A stretch of 64,000 nt of DNA, taken from positions 1 to 64,000 of the forward strand of contig NZ_WRPR01000007.1 in assembly GCF_010367455.1 (NCBI RefSeq), written 5' to 3'. A program made the translations under genes and the position numbers. The notes under the pieces were generated by a model. The model was not told the DNA's origin and made no database searches. It saw nothing but the letters and a program-made list of their open reading frames with translations. Position 1 is the stretch's first letter, and every line of letters begins with the position of its first letter. Positions 2,897-51,936 of the stretch are shown one piece after another. Source of the DNA: Candidatus Laterigemmans baculatus (lineage in GTDB: Bacteria > Planctomycetota > Planctomycetia > Pirellulales > Pirellulaceae).

Positions 2897-3030
2897 TCGT
2901 TTAACGGCAAGCCGCAGGCGACGGTGTTTTCTACCGGAAGACGGAGTCCTCTTCCGTCGAATCACTACAGTGGACGAACCGGAGGGCGATCCTACGAAAA
3001 GCAGTCGCCTTCGGCTTGCCGTTAAACGAT
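2897..3030. repeat. Family A repeat, copy A2, with enlarged loop
   Basis: The two arms of the TTTAACGGCAAGCCG palindrome are present at 2897-2930 and about 2998-3030, but about 65 bp separate them instead of about 12. The inner sequence contains its own small dyad (GGAAGACGGAGTCCTCTTCC). The copy lies between the start of lysA and the stop of the dioxygenase gene at 3053. Confidence 0.8.
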
Positions 3031-3825: not shown

Positions 3826-4030
3826 AGCCGCGTAGCGGCGACATACAGTAGCCTGGGGCGCGAGCCCCAGGAATGCAACAAATCATGCGGGCAAGCCCCG
3901 GAGGGGCGACATCGATTTATTGCGGAATGCTCTGTCGCCCCGCTGGGGCTTCGCGGGGGGCCCTTGCCCCGAGACCAGGGGCTCACGCCCCTGGCTATTT
4001 TATTTCGCCGCTACGCGGCTGGGCTATTCC
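3826..4030. repeat. Family F repeat block (GAGCCCCAGG / GCAAGCCCCGGAGGGGCGAC)
   Basis: The stretch between the start of the PhyH gene and the stop of the DUF1501 gene consists of short inverted repeats: CTGGGGCGCGAGCCCCAG, GCCCCGGAGGGGCGACA paired with TGTCGCCCCGCTGGGGC, CCAGGGGCTCACGCCCCTGG, and CGCCGCTACGCGGCTGGG paired with the start of the block (CCGCGTAGCGGCGACATA). I see no gene in it. Confidence 0.75.
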
Positions 4031-9179: not shown

Positions 9180-9657
9180 CGGACTTTGGCGGGTAGGAGA
9201 CGGGGATCGTCGGCGGGAAAAAGTCCTTTCCAGTATATACCTTTCGCCGCGGCGACTCACGAGAAACTTCTTCACGGCGGTCTCTTCGCCCACTCGAGCC
9301 GACGGCGTTAGCCGCGGGTGCCGCAGCGGAAATCCCGGCGCTGCGAGGCCTGAGGCTGGCGCTTTGTCAGAAAACTAGCTCGATACCCTCCCCCCGGGCG
9401 TTGGCCTCTACACAAGTCCAAGGGCTACGAAAGGCACAGCCAATACCCTCCCCCCGGGAGGGTCGCGAGGAACGAGCGGGGAGGGTTTCCGCAACGGTGA
9501 GTTTCATTTGGGGCTATCGTCAGGGATTGCTCTCCCTCGCCTCGCTGACGCTCGACCCTCCCGGGGGGAGGGTCGAGGTCAGGTTGTGCGACTTGTGTAG
9601 AGACTAATGTCCCCCGGGAGGGTGGCGTCGAAGAGCGGTTTTCTGGCAACGCCTTGC
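9180..9657. repeat. Intergenic block with families E and C repeats
   Basis: This 478-bp gap holds no convincing gene. At about 9297-9330 there is a family E element (GAGCCGACGGCGTTAGCCGC). From 9379 to 9625 there are four family C segments built on CCCTCCCCCCGGGAGGG in both orientations, two flanked by TCGCGAGGAACGAGCGGGG. The short direct repeat CTACACAAGTCC / CTTGTGTAGAGACTA brackets the C block as an inverted pair. The block lies between two minus-strand genes, 3' of the S46 peptidase gene. Confidence 0.7.
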
Positions 9658-17669: not shown

Positions 17670-18363
17670 CAAACCTCTCCCAACCCCAGGGGCCGCAAAA
17701 CAGACGTACTCTAGTTCGCTAGATCAGACGTTATTACTGTGCAAACGCCCTCAATGGTTCGAAAAAAAGCTGGGGGCAAAAATCGCGCCGGGGAGCCCCA
17801 GAGGCGGATTGAGAGAAGCACGCAGGAGAAAGCCACGGGAGCTGTGTCAGGGGTGCTGGACGAAACCGAGGGCTAGCTCTGTTAGCAAACCCCCTCTCAG
17901 TATCATCCTCCCCCCGGGAGGGCCGGGATCTTAGGCCCGGGGAGGGCCTGCTGCATCGCGCCGCATGGAGGCTCTACGTTGCGCATTACCCTCCCCGGTC
18001 GTTCCTCGCGACCCTCCCGGGGGGAGGGTGTCGTTGCGCGTTGTCTGACAGAGCCGAGGTAGATTATTCATCAGCCCCCGGTTCTGAAAAACGCCGCAAG
18101 AACCGGACGCTAGCCCGGATTATTCATCAGCCGCCGGGCGCTAGCCCCCGGTTCTCGAAAACGCCGTGGGAACCGGACGCTAGCGCGTGGCGGCTGATGA
18201 GATGAGAAATTCTCACGCTGAATTGCCATAACGTCAGTCGTGCCCAGCAGTTGGCTACCAAGTCGTTTAACGGCAAGCCGAAGGCGACTGCTTTCTAAAA
18301 CACAGTCGCCTTCGGCTTGCCGTTAAATGATTTTTCGGCGAGCCGTTGCTTTGCTAGCAAATC
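17670..18363. repeat. Repeat-filled intergenic region (families C, B and A)
   Basis: No gene is visible in this 694-bp gap. Family C segments occupy about 17906-18031 (CCCTCCCCCCGGGAGGG, an inverted copy, and TCGTTCCTCGCGACC). A doubled family B element covers 18069-18200. Family A copy A3 is at 18263-18330, preceded at 18243-18262 by the same 20 bases that precede A1 at the start of the window. The first 150 bases, upstream of HtrA, may hold its promoter, but I cannot assign boxes with confidence. Confidence 0.75.
18263..18330. repeat. Family A palindromic repeat, copy A3
   Basis: Inverted repeat with the CGTTTAACGGCAAGCCG core and a T-run after the right arm. One base of the right arm differs (TTAAATGA instead of TTAAACGA). 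It lies 34 bp after the stop of the minus-strand glycosyltransferase gene at 18364. Confidence 0.85.
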
Positions 18364-20183: not shown

Positions 20184-20213
20184 CAGGCCCGCGACACTTG
20201 CTCACGCGGAAAA

Positions 20214-20281
20214 GTCGTTTAACGGCAAGCCGCAGGCGACTGTGTTTTGAAAAGCAGTCGCCTGCGGCTTGCCGTTAAACA
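20214..20281. repeat. Family A palindromic repeat, copy A4 (compensatory arm change)
   Basis: Same palindrome as A1 but with CCGCAGG in the left arm and CCTGCGG in the right, where A1 has CCGAAGG and CCTTCGG; both arms changed together so pairing is kept. It lies in the 149-bp gap between the convergent RidA and helicase genes, 31 bp past the RidA stop. Confidence 0.85.
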
Positions 20282-20332
20282 AATGACTCTGGCGGCAGCA
20301 CGCGGTGCCGCCGCCGTGGGGTGAAGCTTACT

Positions 20333-28365: not shown

Positions 28366-28500
28366 CACCCTCCCCCCGGGAGGGTCGCGAGGAACGAGCG
28401 GGGAGGGGCAATGTGCTGCGGGGTGAAGTTCGCTCAGTTCGCGGGGAAACGCCGGACGGGAGACCCTCCCCGGGCCTAAGAGCCCGACCCTCCCGCAAGC
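28366..28500. repeat. Family C repeat pair
   Basis: Two opposed segments (CCCTCCCCCCGGGAGGG with GCGAGGAACGAGCGGGGAGG, then CCCTCCCCGGGCCTAAGAGC and GACCCTCCCGC) fill the gap between the S9 peptidase start and the lpd stop. The same pair recurs at 17.9, 40.5 and 51.7 kb. No gene seen. Confidence 0.8.
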
Positions 28501-33461: not shown

Positions 33462-33540
33462 CAGCTTCCGGGTTTTGGAGGTTCGCGTGAGCTCGGGTCC
33501 GTGGCTAATGAATTGACCGGCCGCGGAAAGATTGCTTAAC

Positions 33541-33607
33541 GATAGTCGCCTTTCGCTCCGCGAAAGTAGCGGTCACATAGTCGCCTTTCGCTCCGCGAAA
33601 GTAGCGT
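33541..33607. repeat. Family D repeat, two direct copies
   Basis: ATAGTCGCCTTTCGCTCCGC followed by GAAAGTAGCG occurs twice in tandem with a few bases between. The unit is itself a hairpin (TTTCGC...GCGAAA). It recurs at 37069-37187. Confidence 0.85.
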
Positions 33608-37057: not shown

Positions 37058-37068
37058 CGGCGGACCAT

Positions 37069-37187
37069 AGTCGCCTTTCGCTCCGCGAAAGTAGCGCAAG
37101 CATAGTCGCCTTTCGCTCCGCGAAAGTTGTGTCAGCACGCTACTTTCGCGGAGCGAAAGGCGACTATGACGGAGCGAGAGGCGACTC
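37069..37187. repeat. Family D repeats, three copies in both orientations
   Basis: Two plus-oriented copies (ATAGTCGCCTTTCGCTCCGC, then GAAAGTAGCG or GAAAGTTGTG) and one inverted copy (GCTACTTTCGCGGAGCGAAA, GGCGACTATG), followed by a partial GGAGCGAGAGGCGACT. They fill the gap between the convergent fabF and rph stops and could fold into long stems, acting as a bidirectional terminator. Confidence 0.85.
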
Positions 37188-37202: not shown

Positions 37203-38033
37203 CTAGCGGCCGAGGGCTTTGCGTTGGAGTGCGGTCAGCTCGGCGATCCCTTTGCGGCCGAGGGCCAACATCTCGCTCAGTTGCTGGTCGTCGAACGTCG
37301 CCTCTTCGCCGGTGCCTTGGATTTCCACAAACCGTCCGCTGCCGGTCATCACAATGTTCATGTCGACGTCGGCCGCCACGTCCAAGGCATAGTCGAGGTC
37401 GAGCCGGACGCTGCCGTCGACCACCCCCACGCTGATCGCGGCCACGCTATCGACCAGCGGACCATGCCCGATCTCGCCCCATGAGCCGTGGGCGCTAGCC
37501 CCGGGTGAGCCGTGGGCGCTAGCCCCGGGTGAGCCGTGGGCGCTAGCCCCGAGTGAGCCGTGGGCGCTAGCCCCGGGCGAGCCGCTGGCGTAAGCCTCCG
37601 GCGGGGCGAGCGTGCGAATCGCTTCGGCCAGGGCGATGAAGCCGCCGGTGATCGCTGCGGTCCGCGTCCCGCCGTCGGCTTGCAGCACGTCGCAGTCGAC
37701 CGTCACCGTCCGCTCGCCGAGCGCGAACAGATTGACGACTGCCCGCAGGCTGCGGCCGATCAGCCGCTGGATCTCGGTCGTCCGGCCGTCGACTTTGCCG
37801 TCTCGGTCGCGGCGTTTGCGAGTCGGCGTGCTGCCGGGCAGCATGTTGTACTCGGCAGTCACCCAGCCCTTGCCCTTGCCCTCCATCCACGGCGGGACTT
37901 TTTCTTCCACGCTGGCCGTGCAGAGGACAACCGTCTCGCCGCTGCGATAGAGCACGTTAGCAGCCGCATTGCCCAAATAGTTTCGCTCGATCTGAACCGG
38001 ACGAAGAGCGTTGGCAGCACGAGGATCAAGCAT
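37203..38033 (-). CDS. rph: Ribonuclease PH with an internal repeat-derived insertion
   Basis: 276 residues from the ATG at 38033 (MLDPRAANALRPVQIERNYL). RNase PH trims tRNA 3' ends phosphorolytically. The family stretches are intact: VLCTASVEEKVPPWMEGKGKGWVTAEYNMLPGST, RKRRDRDGKVDGRTTEIQRLIGRSLRAVVN, VTVDCDVLQADGGTRTAAITGGFIAL, then VAAISVGVVDGSVRLDLDYA and DVDMNIVMTGSGRFVEIQGTGEE. Between the last two blocks about 40 extra residues are inserted after APPEAY, consisting of Gly-Ser-Pro-Gly-Ala-Ser-Ala-His units encoded by family E DNA (37483-37601). Normal RNase PH is about 240 residues. Fold should survive because the site is a surface loop; this is inferred. It follows argF by 66 bp. Confidence 0.93.
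   Translation of the reverse strand: MLDPRAANALRPVQIERNYLGNAAANVLYRSGETVVLCTASVEEKVPPWMEGKGKGWVTAEYNMLPGSTPTRKRRDRDGKVDGRTTEIQRLIGRSLRAVVNLFALGERTVTVDCDVLQADGGTRTAAITGGFIALAEAIRTLAPPEAYASGSPGASAHGSLGASAHGSPGASAHGSPGASAHGSWGEIGHGPLVDSVAAISVGVVDGSVRLDLDYALDVAADVDMNIVMTGSGRFVEIQGTGEEATFDDQQLSEMLALGRKGIAELTALQRKALGR
37483..37601. repeat. 24-bp tandem repeat of family E inside rph
   Basis: Four units of 24 bp (each starting GAGCCGTGGGCGCTAGCCCC on the plus strand) at 37483-37578, the first two identical, and a fifth degenerate unit to about 37601. Each is eight codons in the minus-strand frame. The unit is the same as the intergenic family E element seen at 25.1, 33.6, 48.9 and 53.6 kb. Confidence 0.95.
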
Positions 38034-39085: not shown

Positions 39086-40315
39086 TTAGACTTCGGCCGG
39101 TTCGCCTTCGGCCCTCTCGAGCACGCCTCGCAGAATTTCCAATCCGCGATCCGCCTCTTCGTCGCTCAAGTTCATCGCCGGCAGCAGCCGGAGCGTCGTC
39201 TGTTGGGTGCAGTTGAGCAACAGGCCCTGCCGCATGCACTCCTCCACGATCGAGCTGCCTTCGATCTCCAACTCTAATCCGAGCATCAATCCAACCGCGC
39301 GGACTTCGCGAACGAACTCGAACTGCTCAGCCATTGCCTGCAGCCCTTCGACCAGCCGTTGGCTGATCTGTTGGGCTCGCTCGAGCAAGCCTTCCGCCTC
39401 GATCGTTTCGATCATTGCGATTCCCGCCGCCGCGGCGATCGGGTTGCCGCCAAAGGTCGCCGCGTGGGTCCCCGGGCGCAAACTGGTGGCGACTTCGGGG
39501 CGAGCCAGCATCGCGCCACCAGCCACCCCCGCGCAGAGCGATTTCGCGAGCGTGATGATATCGGGAGTGACGTTGAAGTACTGGTGGCCAAACCACTGGC
39601 CGGTCCGCCCGCAGCCGGTTTGGACTTCGTCGAAGATCAGCAGCAGTTCGTTCTGGTCGGCGATCTCCCGGAGTTCGGCCAAGAAACCTTCGGGCGGAAT
39701 CCGCACGCCCCCTTCGCCTTGGATCGGCTCGAGCAGGATCGCCGCGGTGCTCTCGTCGACAGCGGCCCGCACCGCTTCGATGTCGCCGAACGGGCAGTAG
39801 GTAAAGCCGGCCACGAGCGGGCCGAGCCCCTCGTGATATTTGGGCTGGGCGGTCGCCGTCAGGCTGCCGAGGGTGCGACCGTGGAATCCGCCGGTGAAGG
39901 TGATGATCTTGTACCGCTCTGGCGGAGTGGCCAGGCGAGCGAGTTTGATCGCCGCCTCGTTGGCTTCGGTGCCGCTGTTGCAAAAGAACGCTTGGCCGCC
40001 AAACGCGGTCCGCGTGCTGAGCATCTCCGCCCAGCGTCCCTGCTGCTCGGTGTACCAGGTGTTGGGGACGTGGATCAGCGTCGCGGCTTGTCGCTGGACC
40101 GCCTCGACCACGCGCGGCGGGCAGTGGCCGAGCAGATTGCAGCCCCAGCCGGGGAACAGATCGAGGTATTCCCGGCCCTCGCTGTCCCAGACCCGCGAGC
40201 CCTCGCCCCGCACGAGGCTGACCGGAAAGCGACGGTAGTTGGCGATCACGTAGTCATCGAATAACTCGATGGTGGCGTCGGTCGAAAGCGGAGCGGTGTC
40301 GGTCGAAGCGGGCAT
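39086..40315 (-). CDS. argD: Acetylornithine aminotransferase
   Basis: 409 residues. Class-III PLP aminotransferase acting on N-acetylglutamate semialdehyde. Visible: [83 protein letters not shown], and [20 protein letters not shown] with the PLP Lys, then [15 protein letters not shown]. It could also act on succinyl-diaminopimelate, but argB and argF on either side support an arginine role. Probably one transcript with argF and rph. Confidence 0.95.
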
Positions 40316-40369
40316 GGGCGGTCGGGAGCAGAGGGCTGTGGGATGGAGTCAGCGAAGCAGTGTGTCGAT

Positions 40370-40583
40370 TCAGCCGCCACGCTTCTTGCGTCCGGTTGTC
40401 GTTGTGTTTTCGGGAACCGGGGGCTAGCGCCCGGCGGCTGATGGTTTCTTCATCATTACCCTCCCCCCGGGAGGGTCGGGCTCTTAGGCCCGGGGAGGGC
40501 TAGCTGAATTCATTTCGCAGAGGGCTCGACGGTGCGGATCTCCCTCCCCGCTCGTTCCTCGCGACCCTCCCGGGGGGAGGGTG
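40370..40583. repeat. Families B and C repeats in the argD-argB gap
   Basis: Copy B4 (CAGCCGCCACGCTTCTTGCG ... CCGGGGGCTAGCGCCCGGCG) at 40370-40443 and an opposed family C pair at 40458-40583 fill the 292 bp between argB and argD. No gene seen. If the three arg genes form one transcript, it has to pass through these hairpins. Confidence 0.8.
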
Positions 40584-40603
40584 TCGTTTTACCTTTTCTG
40601 AGC

Positions 40604-40628
40604 GGGGCTAGCGCCCGGCGGCTGATGG
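40604..40628. repeat. Family B half-element overlapping the argB stop codon
   Basis: Right half of family B (GGGGCTAGCGCCCGGCGGCT followed by GATGG). Read on the minus strand it forms the last codons of argB and its TAG stop, part of the GCGCTAGC core. Confidence 0.9.
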
Positions 40629-41510
40629 TTGTGAGGCCACGGAAGTGTCGCGGACGATCTCGGTGCCGACGCCTTCGGTGGTAAAGATTTCCAGCAGCAG
40701 CGAGTGCCGCAGCCGGCCATCGATGATATGCACTTTGCCGACGCCCCGGTCGAGGGTCTCGAGACAGGCTTCGACTTTGGGGATCATCCCCCCGGCGATC
40801 ACTCCTTCGGCGATCAGCTCGCGGGACTGAGCGGCCGAGAGCGAGTGGATGATCGAGGTGGGATCTTCCGGATTGCGGCGAACGCCATTGACGTCGCTCA
40901 GGAAGACCAGCTTCTCGGCCCCGAGTGCCTGGGCGACCGCCATCGCCGCGGTGTCGGCGTTGACGTTCAGCTTTTGCCCCGTCGGGTCTTCGCACATCGA
41001 GGGGATGATCGGGACTTGATTGGTGTAGGAGAGGCTCTCAATCGGTTGGCGGTCGACGCGGGTGACTTCGCCGACGAAGCCCAGGTCGTCGCCGTCGGTG
41101 CGGAGCTTTTCGCCGAACAGGATGTTGTTGCCGTTGGCGAAGTTGAGATTCATCGCCCGCCCGCCGAGCGCCTCGATCTCCGCCGTCAGGGCCGCATTGA
41201 GCTCGGTCGCCAAGACGCGTTCGACGACTTTCAGCGTGGCGGCGTCGGTGACCCGCCGGCCGCGAATGAACTGCGGCTCGATCTGTTCTTCGGCCAAGGC
41301 GCGGTTAATTGCTTTGCCGCCACCATGGACAACCACCGGATGGAGCCCTACGGTTTCCAAGAAGATGACGTCCAGCAAGATGTGGCGGAGCGCCTCGGCG
41401 TCATCCAACACGCTGCCTCCGAGCTTGATCACGGTCGTCTTGCCGCGGAACCGACGGATCCATCCCATCGCTTCGATCAAGACGTTCGCTTTGGCGATCG
41501 CTTCGTCCAA
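40608..41510 (-). CDS. argB: Acetylglutamate kinase with repeat-derived C-terminus
   Basis: 300 residues. It phosphorylates N-acetylglutamate, the usual control step of arginine synthesis. Amino-acid-kinase motifs: [37 protein letters not shown]-type core (here [10 protein letters not shown]), [27 protein letters not shown] and [30 protein letters not shown]. The true domain ends near VGTEIV; the last residues QPSAAGR and the stop codon are encoded by the family B repeat at 40604-40628. The N-terminal helix of about 20 residues ahead of the kinase core is the type linked to arginine inhibition, which would be a reasonable mode of control. Confidence 0.96.
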
Positions 41511-44288: not shown

Positions 44289-44358
44289 TCGATGCACTCT
44301 GAGTTCGTTTTGGCGGGCCTCTGCCTGCCAGTATCACAGCAGAACGTTCGCGAGAAAT

Positions 44359-44426
44359 TCGTTTAACGGCAAGCCGCAGGCGACTGCTTTTCAAAACACC
44401 GACGCCTTCGGCTTGCCGTTAAACGA
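44359..44426. repeat. Family A palindromic repeat, copy A5
   Basis: Arms TTTAACGGCAAGCCGCAGGC and GCCTTCGGCTTGCCGTTAAA with one internal mismatch pair and a few mutated bases next to the loop. It ends 14 bp beyond the YaiI-like stop at 44441 and lies upstream of deoC. Confidence 0.8.
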
Positions 44427-44440
44427 TGGCCCAAGCGGCT

Positions 44441-47136: not shown

Positions 47137-47663
47137 CTTCTGATGTCGGAGTCGAAGCGGCCCTCGTCGAAGCGGCCCTCGTCGAAGAGCCGGCCGCCGA
47201 GCCCGTCGCGGCGAGGGCTTGTGCCGACCATCCGCTCGCGCCGACCGCGCATCGGCTGCTCGCCTACGGCTGGCTCGTGTGGCTCGTCGGCAGCGGAGGC
47301 ATTTTGCTGTTGGCGGCGGTTCTCGAGTTTCGCCCGCCGCGAACGATCGTGGTTCCGCTCCTCGAATTCTCGCTGCCAGAGACTTGCACAGCCCAGCAGA
47401 TGTTGGGGATCAACTGTCCGGGGTGCGGAATGACTCGAAGTTTCGTGTTGGCGGCGGACGGGGAATTGGCTCGCGCGTGGGCGATGCACCCCATCGGGAC
47501 GCTGCTGTTCTTACTGCTGGTGCTGCAGATTCCCTGGCGGCTGTGGCAAGGCTGGCAGACGGTGCGCGGCCAGCCGGTCTGGCGAACAGGACAACTCGAG
47601 TGGCGAATCGGAGTCGCCCTCGTCGCCGCCTCGTTCCTGTGGTGGGCACTTTCCTTCGTTTAA
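47133..47663 (+). CDS. DUF2752 membrane protein
   Basis: 176 residues. The DUF2752 signature LGINCPGCGMTRSFVLAADGELARAWAMHPIGTLLFLLLVLQIPW is clear: a Cys-rich entry to a short hydrophobic helix pair. Another helix lies near residue 50 (WLVWLVGSGGILLLAAVL) and one at the end (IGVALVAASFLWWALSFV). The N-terminus has a repeated EAALVEAALVEE. Coupled to the TPR gene. The stop codon TAA lies in family A copy A6: the codons after SFV enter the palindrome. Function unknown. Confidence 0.88.
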   Translation: MTSDVGVEAALVEAALVEEPAAEPVAARACADHPLAPTAHRLLAYGWLVWLVGSGGILLLAAVLEFRPPRTIVVPLLEFSLPETCTAQQMLGINCPGCGMTRSFVLAADGELARAWAMHPIGTLLFLLLVLQIPWRLWQGWQTVRGQPVWRTGQLEWRIGVALVAASFLWWALSFV

Positions 47664-47723
47664 CGGCAAGCCGAAGGCGACTGTGTTTCGAAAAGCAGTC
47701 GCCTTCGGCTTGCCGTTAAACGA
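47656..47723. repeat. Family A palindromic repeat, copy A6, carrying a stop codon
   Basis: Intact palindrome with CGTTTAACGGCAAGCCG arms. The TAA within GTTTAACGG is the stop codon of the DUF2752 gene, so the gene ends inside the left arm of the hairpin. Confidence 0.9.
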
Positions 47724-47848
47724 TCACAGCGGTTCATGCTGCGTCCGGTGACAACGGCGGATTAAAAAAAACTGTGGTGGTGCTTCTTTCGCCGTCGACA
47801 ATGCGGATGAACCCCCGATTCATCCACGCTTTTGGGAATCCCCCACCG

Positions 47849-48061: not shown

Positions 48062-48094
48062 CCGGTGCTGGATCTCGAGGGAGAGTCAACCCTG

Positions 48095-48913
48095 ATGTCG
48101 ATGACCGAACCCCGCACGATCGCTGTCGATTCTCTCGAGGTGAGCTTCCAAATCGCCGGTCGCGCCGACGCACCTCGGCTCGTGTTGTTGCACGGTTTTC
48201 CGCTGGACCGGCGGATGTGGACTCCCGCGCTGGACCGGCTAGGGGAGCAGTTCCACGTCTACGCGTTCGATCTGCCGGGGTTCGGTGGCAGCGCGCGGAT
48301 CGCGGACTCAGAGACGATGCCGATGCTGGCCGACTGGCTCGCGCGGGTGCTGCCGGCGGCCGAGATCGACTCGCCGATCATCCTCTGCGGGTTGTCGATG
48401 GGAGGCTACATCGCGCTCGAATTCGCCGCCCGCCATCGGGAATGGCTCTCGCACCTGGTGCTGTGCGACACCAAGACAGCGGCTGATACCGAGGAAGCGC
48501 GAGCCGGTCGGCTGGCGCTCGCCGATTCGGTGGGCGAAACGGGCATGGAACCGGTGGCCGCGACGATGCTGGAGAAACTGGTCGCTCCGGAAACGCTCGC
48601 CGACAACCGGCCGCTGGTCGCGTCGGTGCAAAAGATGATGCTAGACAGCGATCCGGCTTCGGTCGCTGCGGTCTCCCGAGGAATGGCGGCCCGCCGCGAT
48701 ACGAGCGACGTGGTCGCAGGACTCACGATCCCGCTACTGAGCATTGTCGGAGAGAGCGACAGCCTGACTTCGCCCGGAATGATGGACGAGTTCACGCGGC
48801 GGGCCCGCAACGGACGCTTGGTCGTCATCCCCGCAGCGGGACATCTCTCCCCAATGGAGCAGCCGAAGGCATTCGCCGCTGCGGTAATCGAATTCGTGAG
48901 CCGAAGGCGCTAG
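48095..48913 (+). CDS. Alpha/beta hydrolase with repeat-derived C-terminus
   Basis: 272 residues from the ATG at 48095, with GAGGGAGAG eight bases before. The fold is standard: LVLLHGFPLDRRMW (oxyanion HG), nucleophile in IILCGLSMGGYIALEFAA, acid near LSIVGESDSLTSP, His in VVIPAAGHLSPMEQP. Similar to 3-oxoadipate enol-lactonase/MenH-like hydrolases, but the substrate is unclear. The last codons read VSRRR then TAG; GTGAGCCGAAGGCGCTAG is the start of a family E repeat, so the terminus and stop codon come from it. Confidence 0.88.
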   Translation: MSMTEPRTIAVDSLEVSFQIAGRADAPRLVLLHGFPLDRRMWTPALDRLGEQFHVYAFDLPGFGGSARIADSETMPMLADWLARVLPAAEIDSPIILCGLSMGGYIALEFAARHREWLSHLVLCDTKTAADTEEARAGRLALADSVGETGMEPVAATMLEKLVAPETLADNRPLVASVQKMMLDSDPASVAAVSRGMAARRDTSDVVAGLTIPLLSIVGESDSLTSPGMMDEFTRRARNGRLVVIPAAGHLSPMEQPKAFAAAVIEFVSRRR

Positions 48914-51614: not shown

Positions 51615-51936
51615 CTACGGTCAATCCATCAGCCGCCGGGCTCCTTGCGTGCGACACCCTCCCCCCGGGAGGGTCGCGAGGGACGAGCGGGGAGGGAGAT
51701 TCGCGATGTGGGGCACATAAGAGGAATGGATCCAGCGAGCCCTCCCCGGGCCTGAGAGCCCGACCCTCCCGGCGGGAGGGTGATGGTGACGAATAATTTT
51801 TTGACAGAACCAGACGCCCCGCGGCTGACCAATCCGTGAGAAAACTTTGCAGCAGGGAGCGGACCTTCGATCTCCCTCCTCGCGACTTTCTGGCGGATAA
51901 TCCGGCATAAGCGAATCGCCCCCGGTTCGTACTCAG

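Follow-up and report, generated by a model that had tools for sequence, protein, structure and literature searches.

Repeats that supply the stop codon of a gene have been reported from other bacteria. GTAG-tagged REPs have, in the account given by PMC3733652, termini that often provide a TAG stop to flanking ORFs, and the enterobacterial repeat RU-1 is described in PMC2759123 as fused to the amidase ECA3499, where it removed the normal stop. BIMEs, as well as transposases associated with REPs, are described in PMC2817692, and from planctomycetes PMC6006769 presents class 3 TnpA-Y1 transposases that are flanked by atypical hairpins. REPs situated within 15 nt of a stop are stated in PMC12306157, citing earlier work, to lower translation in E. 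coli.

The present study concerns the argB gene of Candidatus Laterigemmans baculatus (Pirellulaceae), which ends inside a short repeat that we term family B. The gene lies in the window, i.e. the whole analysed stretch of 64,000 nucleotides (contig NZ_WRPR01000007.1, positions 1 to 64,000). Since repeat-supplied gene stops are already published (PMC3733652, PMC2759123), argB is a new instance of such a stop, formed by an apparently undescribed repeat family: in the literature searched, and our claim extends to that search, we found no description of family B.

Several likenesses to the described systems are evident. Like the GTAG-tagged REPs of PMC3733652, family B consists of short, high-copy palindromes near gene 3' ends, which often give a TAG stop. 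However, the TAG of those REPs is part of the terminal tag, whereas that of family B is found in the core of the hairpin, and its edges bear no GTAG or CGTC tag. RU-1 in ECA3499 (PMC2759123) resembles the repeat in argB as a small repeat at a 3' end; it took away the normal stop and extended the protein past the conserved domain, as the repeat would have done in argB, but RU-1 measures 127 bp and adds about 34 residues, in contrast to the approximately 20 bases and five added residues in argB. The hairpins of the class 3 TnpA-Y1 elements (PMC6006769) are, like family B, planctomycete, high-copy and suspected to be REP-like; they possess the foot CnGA and flank a class 3 gene, whereas no transposase gene was found beside family B.

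The repeat-encoded end of argB

The ORF in question belongs to ArgB, as its match to TIGR00761 (argB) scores 222.2 bits against a curated cut-off of 151.3; its best PDB relative is 2jj4 (E 2.7e-75). The features at its 3' end are:

40608..41510 (-): argB, acetylglutamate kinase; 300 aa, TTG start according to the ORF listing, ending in SAAGR and the stop
40608..40610 (-): TAG stop of argB, at the centre of the GCTAGC core 40607-40612
40611..40625 (-): five repeat-encoded argB codons, TCA GCC GCC GGG CGC (SAAGR)
40604..40626 (+): REP-like half-unit of family B, GGGGCTAGCGCCCGGCGGCTGAT; its tail edge is 40626, and below 40604 it diverges from the family consensus
40447..40603: 157-base spacer separating two identical 27-base stretches, mostly another repeat family of the CCCTCCCCCCGGGAGGGT type (CCTCCC-type, about 40458-40586)
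40381..40446 (+): decayed family B pair in the gap downstream of argB; its last 27 bases (40420-40446) equal 40604-40630
39086..40315 (-): following gene, encoded on the strand of argB and 292 bases past the argB stop; ORF and called gene

Our data confirm that the family B repeat across the argB 3' end, which gives the gene its last five codons and its stop, is real and beyond chance. The conserved repeat edge ATCAGCC begins at 40626, on the last base of the proline codon CCA, and the repeat thus supplies SAAGR, the stop and this last base; the Q codon and most of the P codon lie outside the family B consensus. An earlier, sequence-only reading of this DNA had proposed that a repeat supplies the last argB codons and the stop, which is borne out by the position of the TAG (40610-40608) inside GCTAGC (40607-40612). 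It had further equated QPSAAGR plus TAG exactly with family B; this is correct for SAAGR and the stop and overstated for QP, and the 20-base string it quoted for QPSAAGR is too short, encoding six codons plus two bases.

The 27 bases at 40604-40630 are identical to 40420-40446 (family D14 of the repeat listing), and the identity extends into the Q codon of argB. The argB copy may therefore have been duplicated locally instead of having arrived independently. The 292-base gap between argB and the gene at 39086-40315, whose product we take to be an aminotransferase of the ArgD kind, is largely composed of repeats, namely the decayed B pair, the CCTCCC-type repeat and the B half-unit. The 157-base stretch with the CCTCCC-type repeat, flanked by the two 27-base identities, might represent a local duplication around an inserted repeat. 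Repeats of the CCCTCCCCCCGGGAGGGT type are present in the window at 9445-9485, 17905-17945, 28367-28407, 40458-40498 and 51656-51696, and at argB their inverted halves lie about 100 bases apart.

Neither the argB half-unit (z -0.20) nor the decayed pair (40378-40446, z -0.27) folds better than its shuffles. A scan of the whole window and of the argB end against Rfam found no RNA family at the repeat and two weak matches far below the gathering scores, and a scan of 40250-40750 gave no promoter-like site and a single terminator-like one, which is on the plus strand (0.7 expected). Elsewhere in the window, Acido-Lenti-1 RNA (RF01687) occurs twice in opposite orientation, at 3826-3871 (-) and 3975-4020 (+), 103 bases apart and both over the gathering score.

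For comparison, argB was retrieved from 60 genomes (58 with a match, 30 loci extracted, our own included) and from 80 named contigs. The 109 relative loci comprise 101 with distinct 3' ends, the window's own L004, L005, L009 and L006 (partial) being left out. Beyond the conserved TEI these 101 relatives possess tails of 2-21 residues with a median of 4 (at least 14 residues in 12 and at least 15 in 3 relatives); the tail of the argB studied here has 15 residues, and the nine between TEIV and the repeat are non-repeat sequence. In none of the 101 does the argB stop lie in GCTAGC or the protein end in AAGR. Repeat-free orthologues with the same final residues, which the sequence-only reading had named as the observation that would speak against it, are likewise missing among them (0 of 101), and its proposal stands in this respect. 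The argB genes of the closest relatives are 73-76% identical to the one studied here, and among the relatives examined we found no close relative whose argB is without the repeat; the earlier stop of argB is therefore unseen.

Most near relatives have an argB tail of two residues, and the tail of one genome (G011) has 14. In this genome, which contains no exact B copy, the tail reads VKDPKSAGQPTGSA followed by the stop and has D, A, Q and P placed as in the nine residues that precede the repeat. Shuffles attain this likeness in 0.005 of trials with respect to G011 alone and in 0.09 if the highest-scoring among 13 long tails is used, and it is no more than suggestive of a longer tail that may predate the repeat. 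Given the nine non-repeat residues, the normal tail range of 2-21 residues and G011, the change made by the repeat may be confined to about five residues, replaced in or added to a tail that was already present. The idea in the sequence-only reading that the C-terminus near VGTEIV was replaced or extended is the weaker part of its interpretation, which as a whole is partly right; the idea may hold in this narrow sense, but it does not extend to the preceding nine residues, and tails of this kind are normal. None of 22 PDB matches to ArgB extends into the repeat-coded residues 296-300, the furthest reaching residue 295. Judged from these comparisons, the part of argB changed by the repeat would be only a variable tail behind the catalytic fold.

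Family B, a REP-like hairpin

At up to three mismatches the window contains 14 matches to the 17-base core GCTAGCGCCCGGCGGCT, where 0.91 would be expected, and none of 100 shuffles reaches 14. In the whole genome (5.76 Mb) the 20-base pattern GCTAGCGCNNNGCGGCTGAT has 274+256 = 530 exact matches, in contrast to 0+0 if it is read backwards. Exact family B copies are present in 20 of 116 relatives searched, with a maximum of 71 (G019), followed by 56 in G014, 41 in G116, 39 in G028, 34 in G076 and 32 in G055. At its two variable positions, where GG covaries with CC and AC with GT, the stem is complementary in 264 of 282 units, while shuffles reach a mean of 134.5 and a maximum of 156. An inverted partner is found 37-41 nt away in 193 of 302 sampled B units, and folding z-scores of -6.40, -9.32 and -9.48 were obtained for the three pairs that are intact in the window. 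The consensus of 164 B units from the first 1.24 Mb has the tail edge ATCAGCC and the head CCGGTT; a conserved GTAG or CGTC tag is absent from the edges of this consensus, and CGTC occurs only within the AC/GT stem subtype.

In the sampled genome, 299 of 302 B cores are not wholly within a called gene. Sorted by gap, 114 of the 302 units are convergent, 134 unidirectional and 31 divergent, with 18 in genes and 5 at edges. The intergenic bases available amount to 55,358 in convergent, 198,591 in unidirectional and 107,246 in divergent gaps, and by this measure B units favour gene 3' sides (convergent and unidirectional gaps).

High copy number, a covarying palindrome, pairs that fold together and an extragenic position near 3' ends are features of REPs and REPINs that family B shares, and it is a REP-like hairpin, mostly arranged in inverted pairs like REPINs. 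REPINs, or BIMEs, are inverted pairs of REPs. Family B resembles them in the two opposite units with outward tails that fold as one long hairpin; unlike in REPINs and BIMEs, no transposase gene was found beside family B, and the argB copy is a half-unit. A RAYT flanked by the same repeat was likewise not found for family B: the genome contains three matches to Y1_Tnp (Pfam), and their loci of 3.2-3.3 kb contain no GCTAGC; a RAYT that lacks a Pfam match may exist in addition. We rejected the third of these matches, which is RAYT-like, as the family B transposase, as it is flanked by a different repeat family.

A RAYT-like protein is encoded at C30:41611-42243 of this genome (L121, L164) and matches NF047646, the REP-associated tyrosine transposase, with 49 bits, below the cut-off of 80. 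Around its gene the TCGTTTAACGGCAAGCCG repeat, which is high-copy genome-wide, has three copies upstream and one inverted copy downstream. With this flanking, high-copy repeat the protein looks like a transposase with a REP family of its own. In the window the TCGTTTAACGGCAAGCCG repeat occurs at 21-99, 2897-3030, 18263-18341, 20205-20289, 44348-44429 and 47652-47724. A tandem 35-base repeat with ATAGTCGCCTTTCGCTCCGCGAAAGTAGCG is present at 33539-33607 and 37064-37132, and its 15-mer GTCGCCTTTCGCTCC is the commonest in the sampled genome apart from N runs (172, both strands).

Reading frames of genes that run into the repeats

The sample for the frame test comprised 2,569,598 bases in 61 contig pieces (44.6% of the genome, 10,235 N), the first part of which was picked from contigs listed with exact repeat hits. 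Genes (1790) were called by our own dicodon model trained on long ORFs, and the gene counts depend on that caller. A count of stops in GCTAGC against chance, which the sequence-only reading had suggested for the whole genome, gave an only mildly raised value in this sample: among the 1790 called genes 33 of 591 TAG stops lie in GCTAGC, compared to 20.8 expected from base composition. This raw count is too blunt, and the frame test was therefore used instead.

Of the called genes, 17 extend into a B tail. The core TAG is the stop of 15 of them (P 4.5e-6 for a one-in-three chance), and two read through in other frames; one of these two lies on C21, and the other, on C34, is a weak call of 303 bases. 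From the B tail edge to 60 nt past the core, stops of called genes are found at no other position. The 15 genes include argB, accA, selA, yjbQ and those for citramalate synthase and prephenate dehydratase. An initial test on the first 1.24 Mb (6/6) is superseded by these figures over 2.57 Mb. In a count independent of the caller (frames open for 60 codons or more whose coding score exceeds 8) the frames that enter a B tail are distributed 1:1:14, in contrast to 16:35:30 at points 30 nt upstream (P 4.7e-5 from the upstream share); the two sets overlap, 11 of these 14 being among the 15. It is clear that genes running into family B mostly do so in the one frame that closes at once. The proposal that insertion of a GCTAGC core near a gene end tends to close the frame agrees with both counts, 15 of 17 called genes and 14 of 16 entering coding frames. 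On the tail side, 206 called genes end between 400 nt before and 200 nt after the core, of which 15 use the core.

The match to the family model stops just short of the repeat in SelA (482/487), YjbQ (137/143), AccA (319/327) and prephenate dehydratase (365/374), which is what a repeat placed at the natural end of the gene would give. In 12 relatives the matches end at 318-324/327 for AccA, 365-368/374 for prephenate dehydratase and 138-143/143 for YjbQ. Past the aligned end, AccA has 2-31 residues in the same 12 relatives and 10 here, so that the repeat-coded tail is within the normal AccA range. Citramalate synthase ends in the repeat, too, with the model end at 530/565 and about 35 residues unmatched. 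Orthologue searches for this enzyme and for a peptidase-like protein yielded mixed or long unmatched tails, and both are excluded from our main claim. In the first 1.24 Mb, 14 B tails are immediately preceded by the linker CTAGCCCGGATTATTC, with a core-to-core distance of 31 bases, and at least two called genes stop at a GCTAGC preceding CTAGCCCGGATTATTC, namely C43:26386-28071 and, via a neighbouring core, C92:21750-23807.

A second GCTAGC family, family D (TGAGCCG..GGCGCTAGC), has 307 units in the sample. It carries stops as TGA at the tail edge, as TAG in the GTAG variant and as TAG in the core; from the tail side it closes two frames, and the GTAG variant closes all three. Twenty-seven called genes enter a D tail. 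The stop lies within it in 21 of them, at TGA in 13, at a TGA displaced by one base in 1, at GTAG in 5 and at the core in 2, while the other 6 genes read through it. Within the window, a D core closes the gene at 48065-48913 (+), and at 37494-37571 four GCTAGC cores exactly 24 bases apart form tandem D-like units inside the called gene 37203-38033.

Explanations for the repeat at gene ends

The most convincing explanation, which we hold with considerable confidence, is that a half copy of family B came to the 3' end of argB, that the stop was lost and the new tail tolerated, and that selection left the closing frame. The REP-like half copy would either have transposed to argB or have been duplicated locally from the copy that lies 184 bases away. 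With the loss of the earlier stop, translation would now read five repeat codons (SAAGR) before it terminates at the core TAG. The repeat may be tolerated because only a variable tail behind the catalytic fold is altered. Likewise at other gene ends, B would close one frame of three early and leave the other two open across it, and selection against long read-through, which we infer as the cause from the counts, would leave mostly the closing frame. Tolerance and filtering would be the simplest account of the frame bias.

The same bias can be read differently. On the one hand, a hairpin with a built-in stop could have been kept as useful, acting on termination, on mRNA 3' ends or on the expression of the next gene. 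The frame bias at B tails (15/17; 1:1:14) fits this reading as well, as do the concentration of B units at gene 3' sides, the stops carried by family D tails (21 of 27 entering called genes stop inside) and the lowered translation that PMC12306157 mentions for REPs near a stop in E. coli. Nevertheless, most B tails follow a gene's own stop, as only 15 of the 206 genes that end nearby use the core, filtering accounts for the bias without any usefulness, and the argB hairpin alone is not unusually stable (z -0.20). We thus consider it improbable that usefulness maintained the repeat, and the wider notion that the REP-like hairpins of this lineage (B and D) are portable translation-stop modules, kept since a stop plus a hairpin is useful, appears to us equally doubtful. 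On the other hand, the repeat might insert specifically at or near stop codons, and the frame bias would then reflect target choice and not selection. That the overlaps in SelA, YjbQ, AccA and prephenate dehydratase are close to where these proteins naturally end is in line with such targeting, but the stop that is used lies in the core of the repeat and not on its border, and the genes that precede B tails terminate at widely varying distances and in every frame (16:35:30 for points 30 nt upstream), which makes targeting less probable still. That the SAAGR end of argB resembles the repeat by coincidence is barely credible: Ala/Gly tails are common at 64% G+C, and locus L094 ends in SPSAGRG and a stop without a GCTAGC core, yet 27 of 27 bases are identical to the copy 184 bases away, and the family pattern has 530 matches against none reversed.

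The additional point of interest of our study is the clear reading-frame bias, for which we claim novelty only with respect to the literature searched. The bias puts numbers on a process otherwise described from single cases, in which repeats at gene ends would be sorted according to reading frame, with mostly the closing frame surviving. For annotators this means that SAAGR or SAATR tails on housekeeping enzymes of this genome are to be regarded as repeat-derived and not as conserved protein features.
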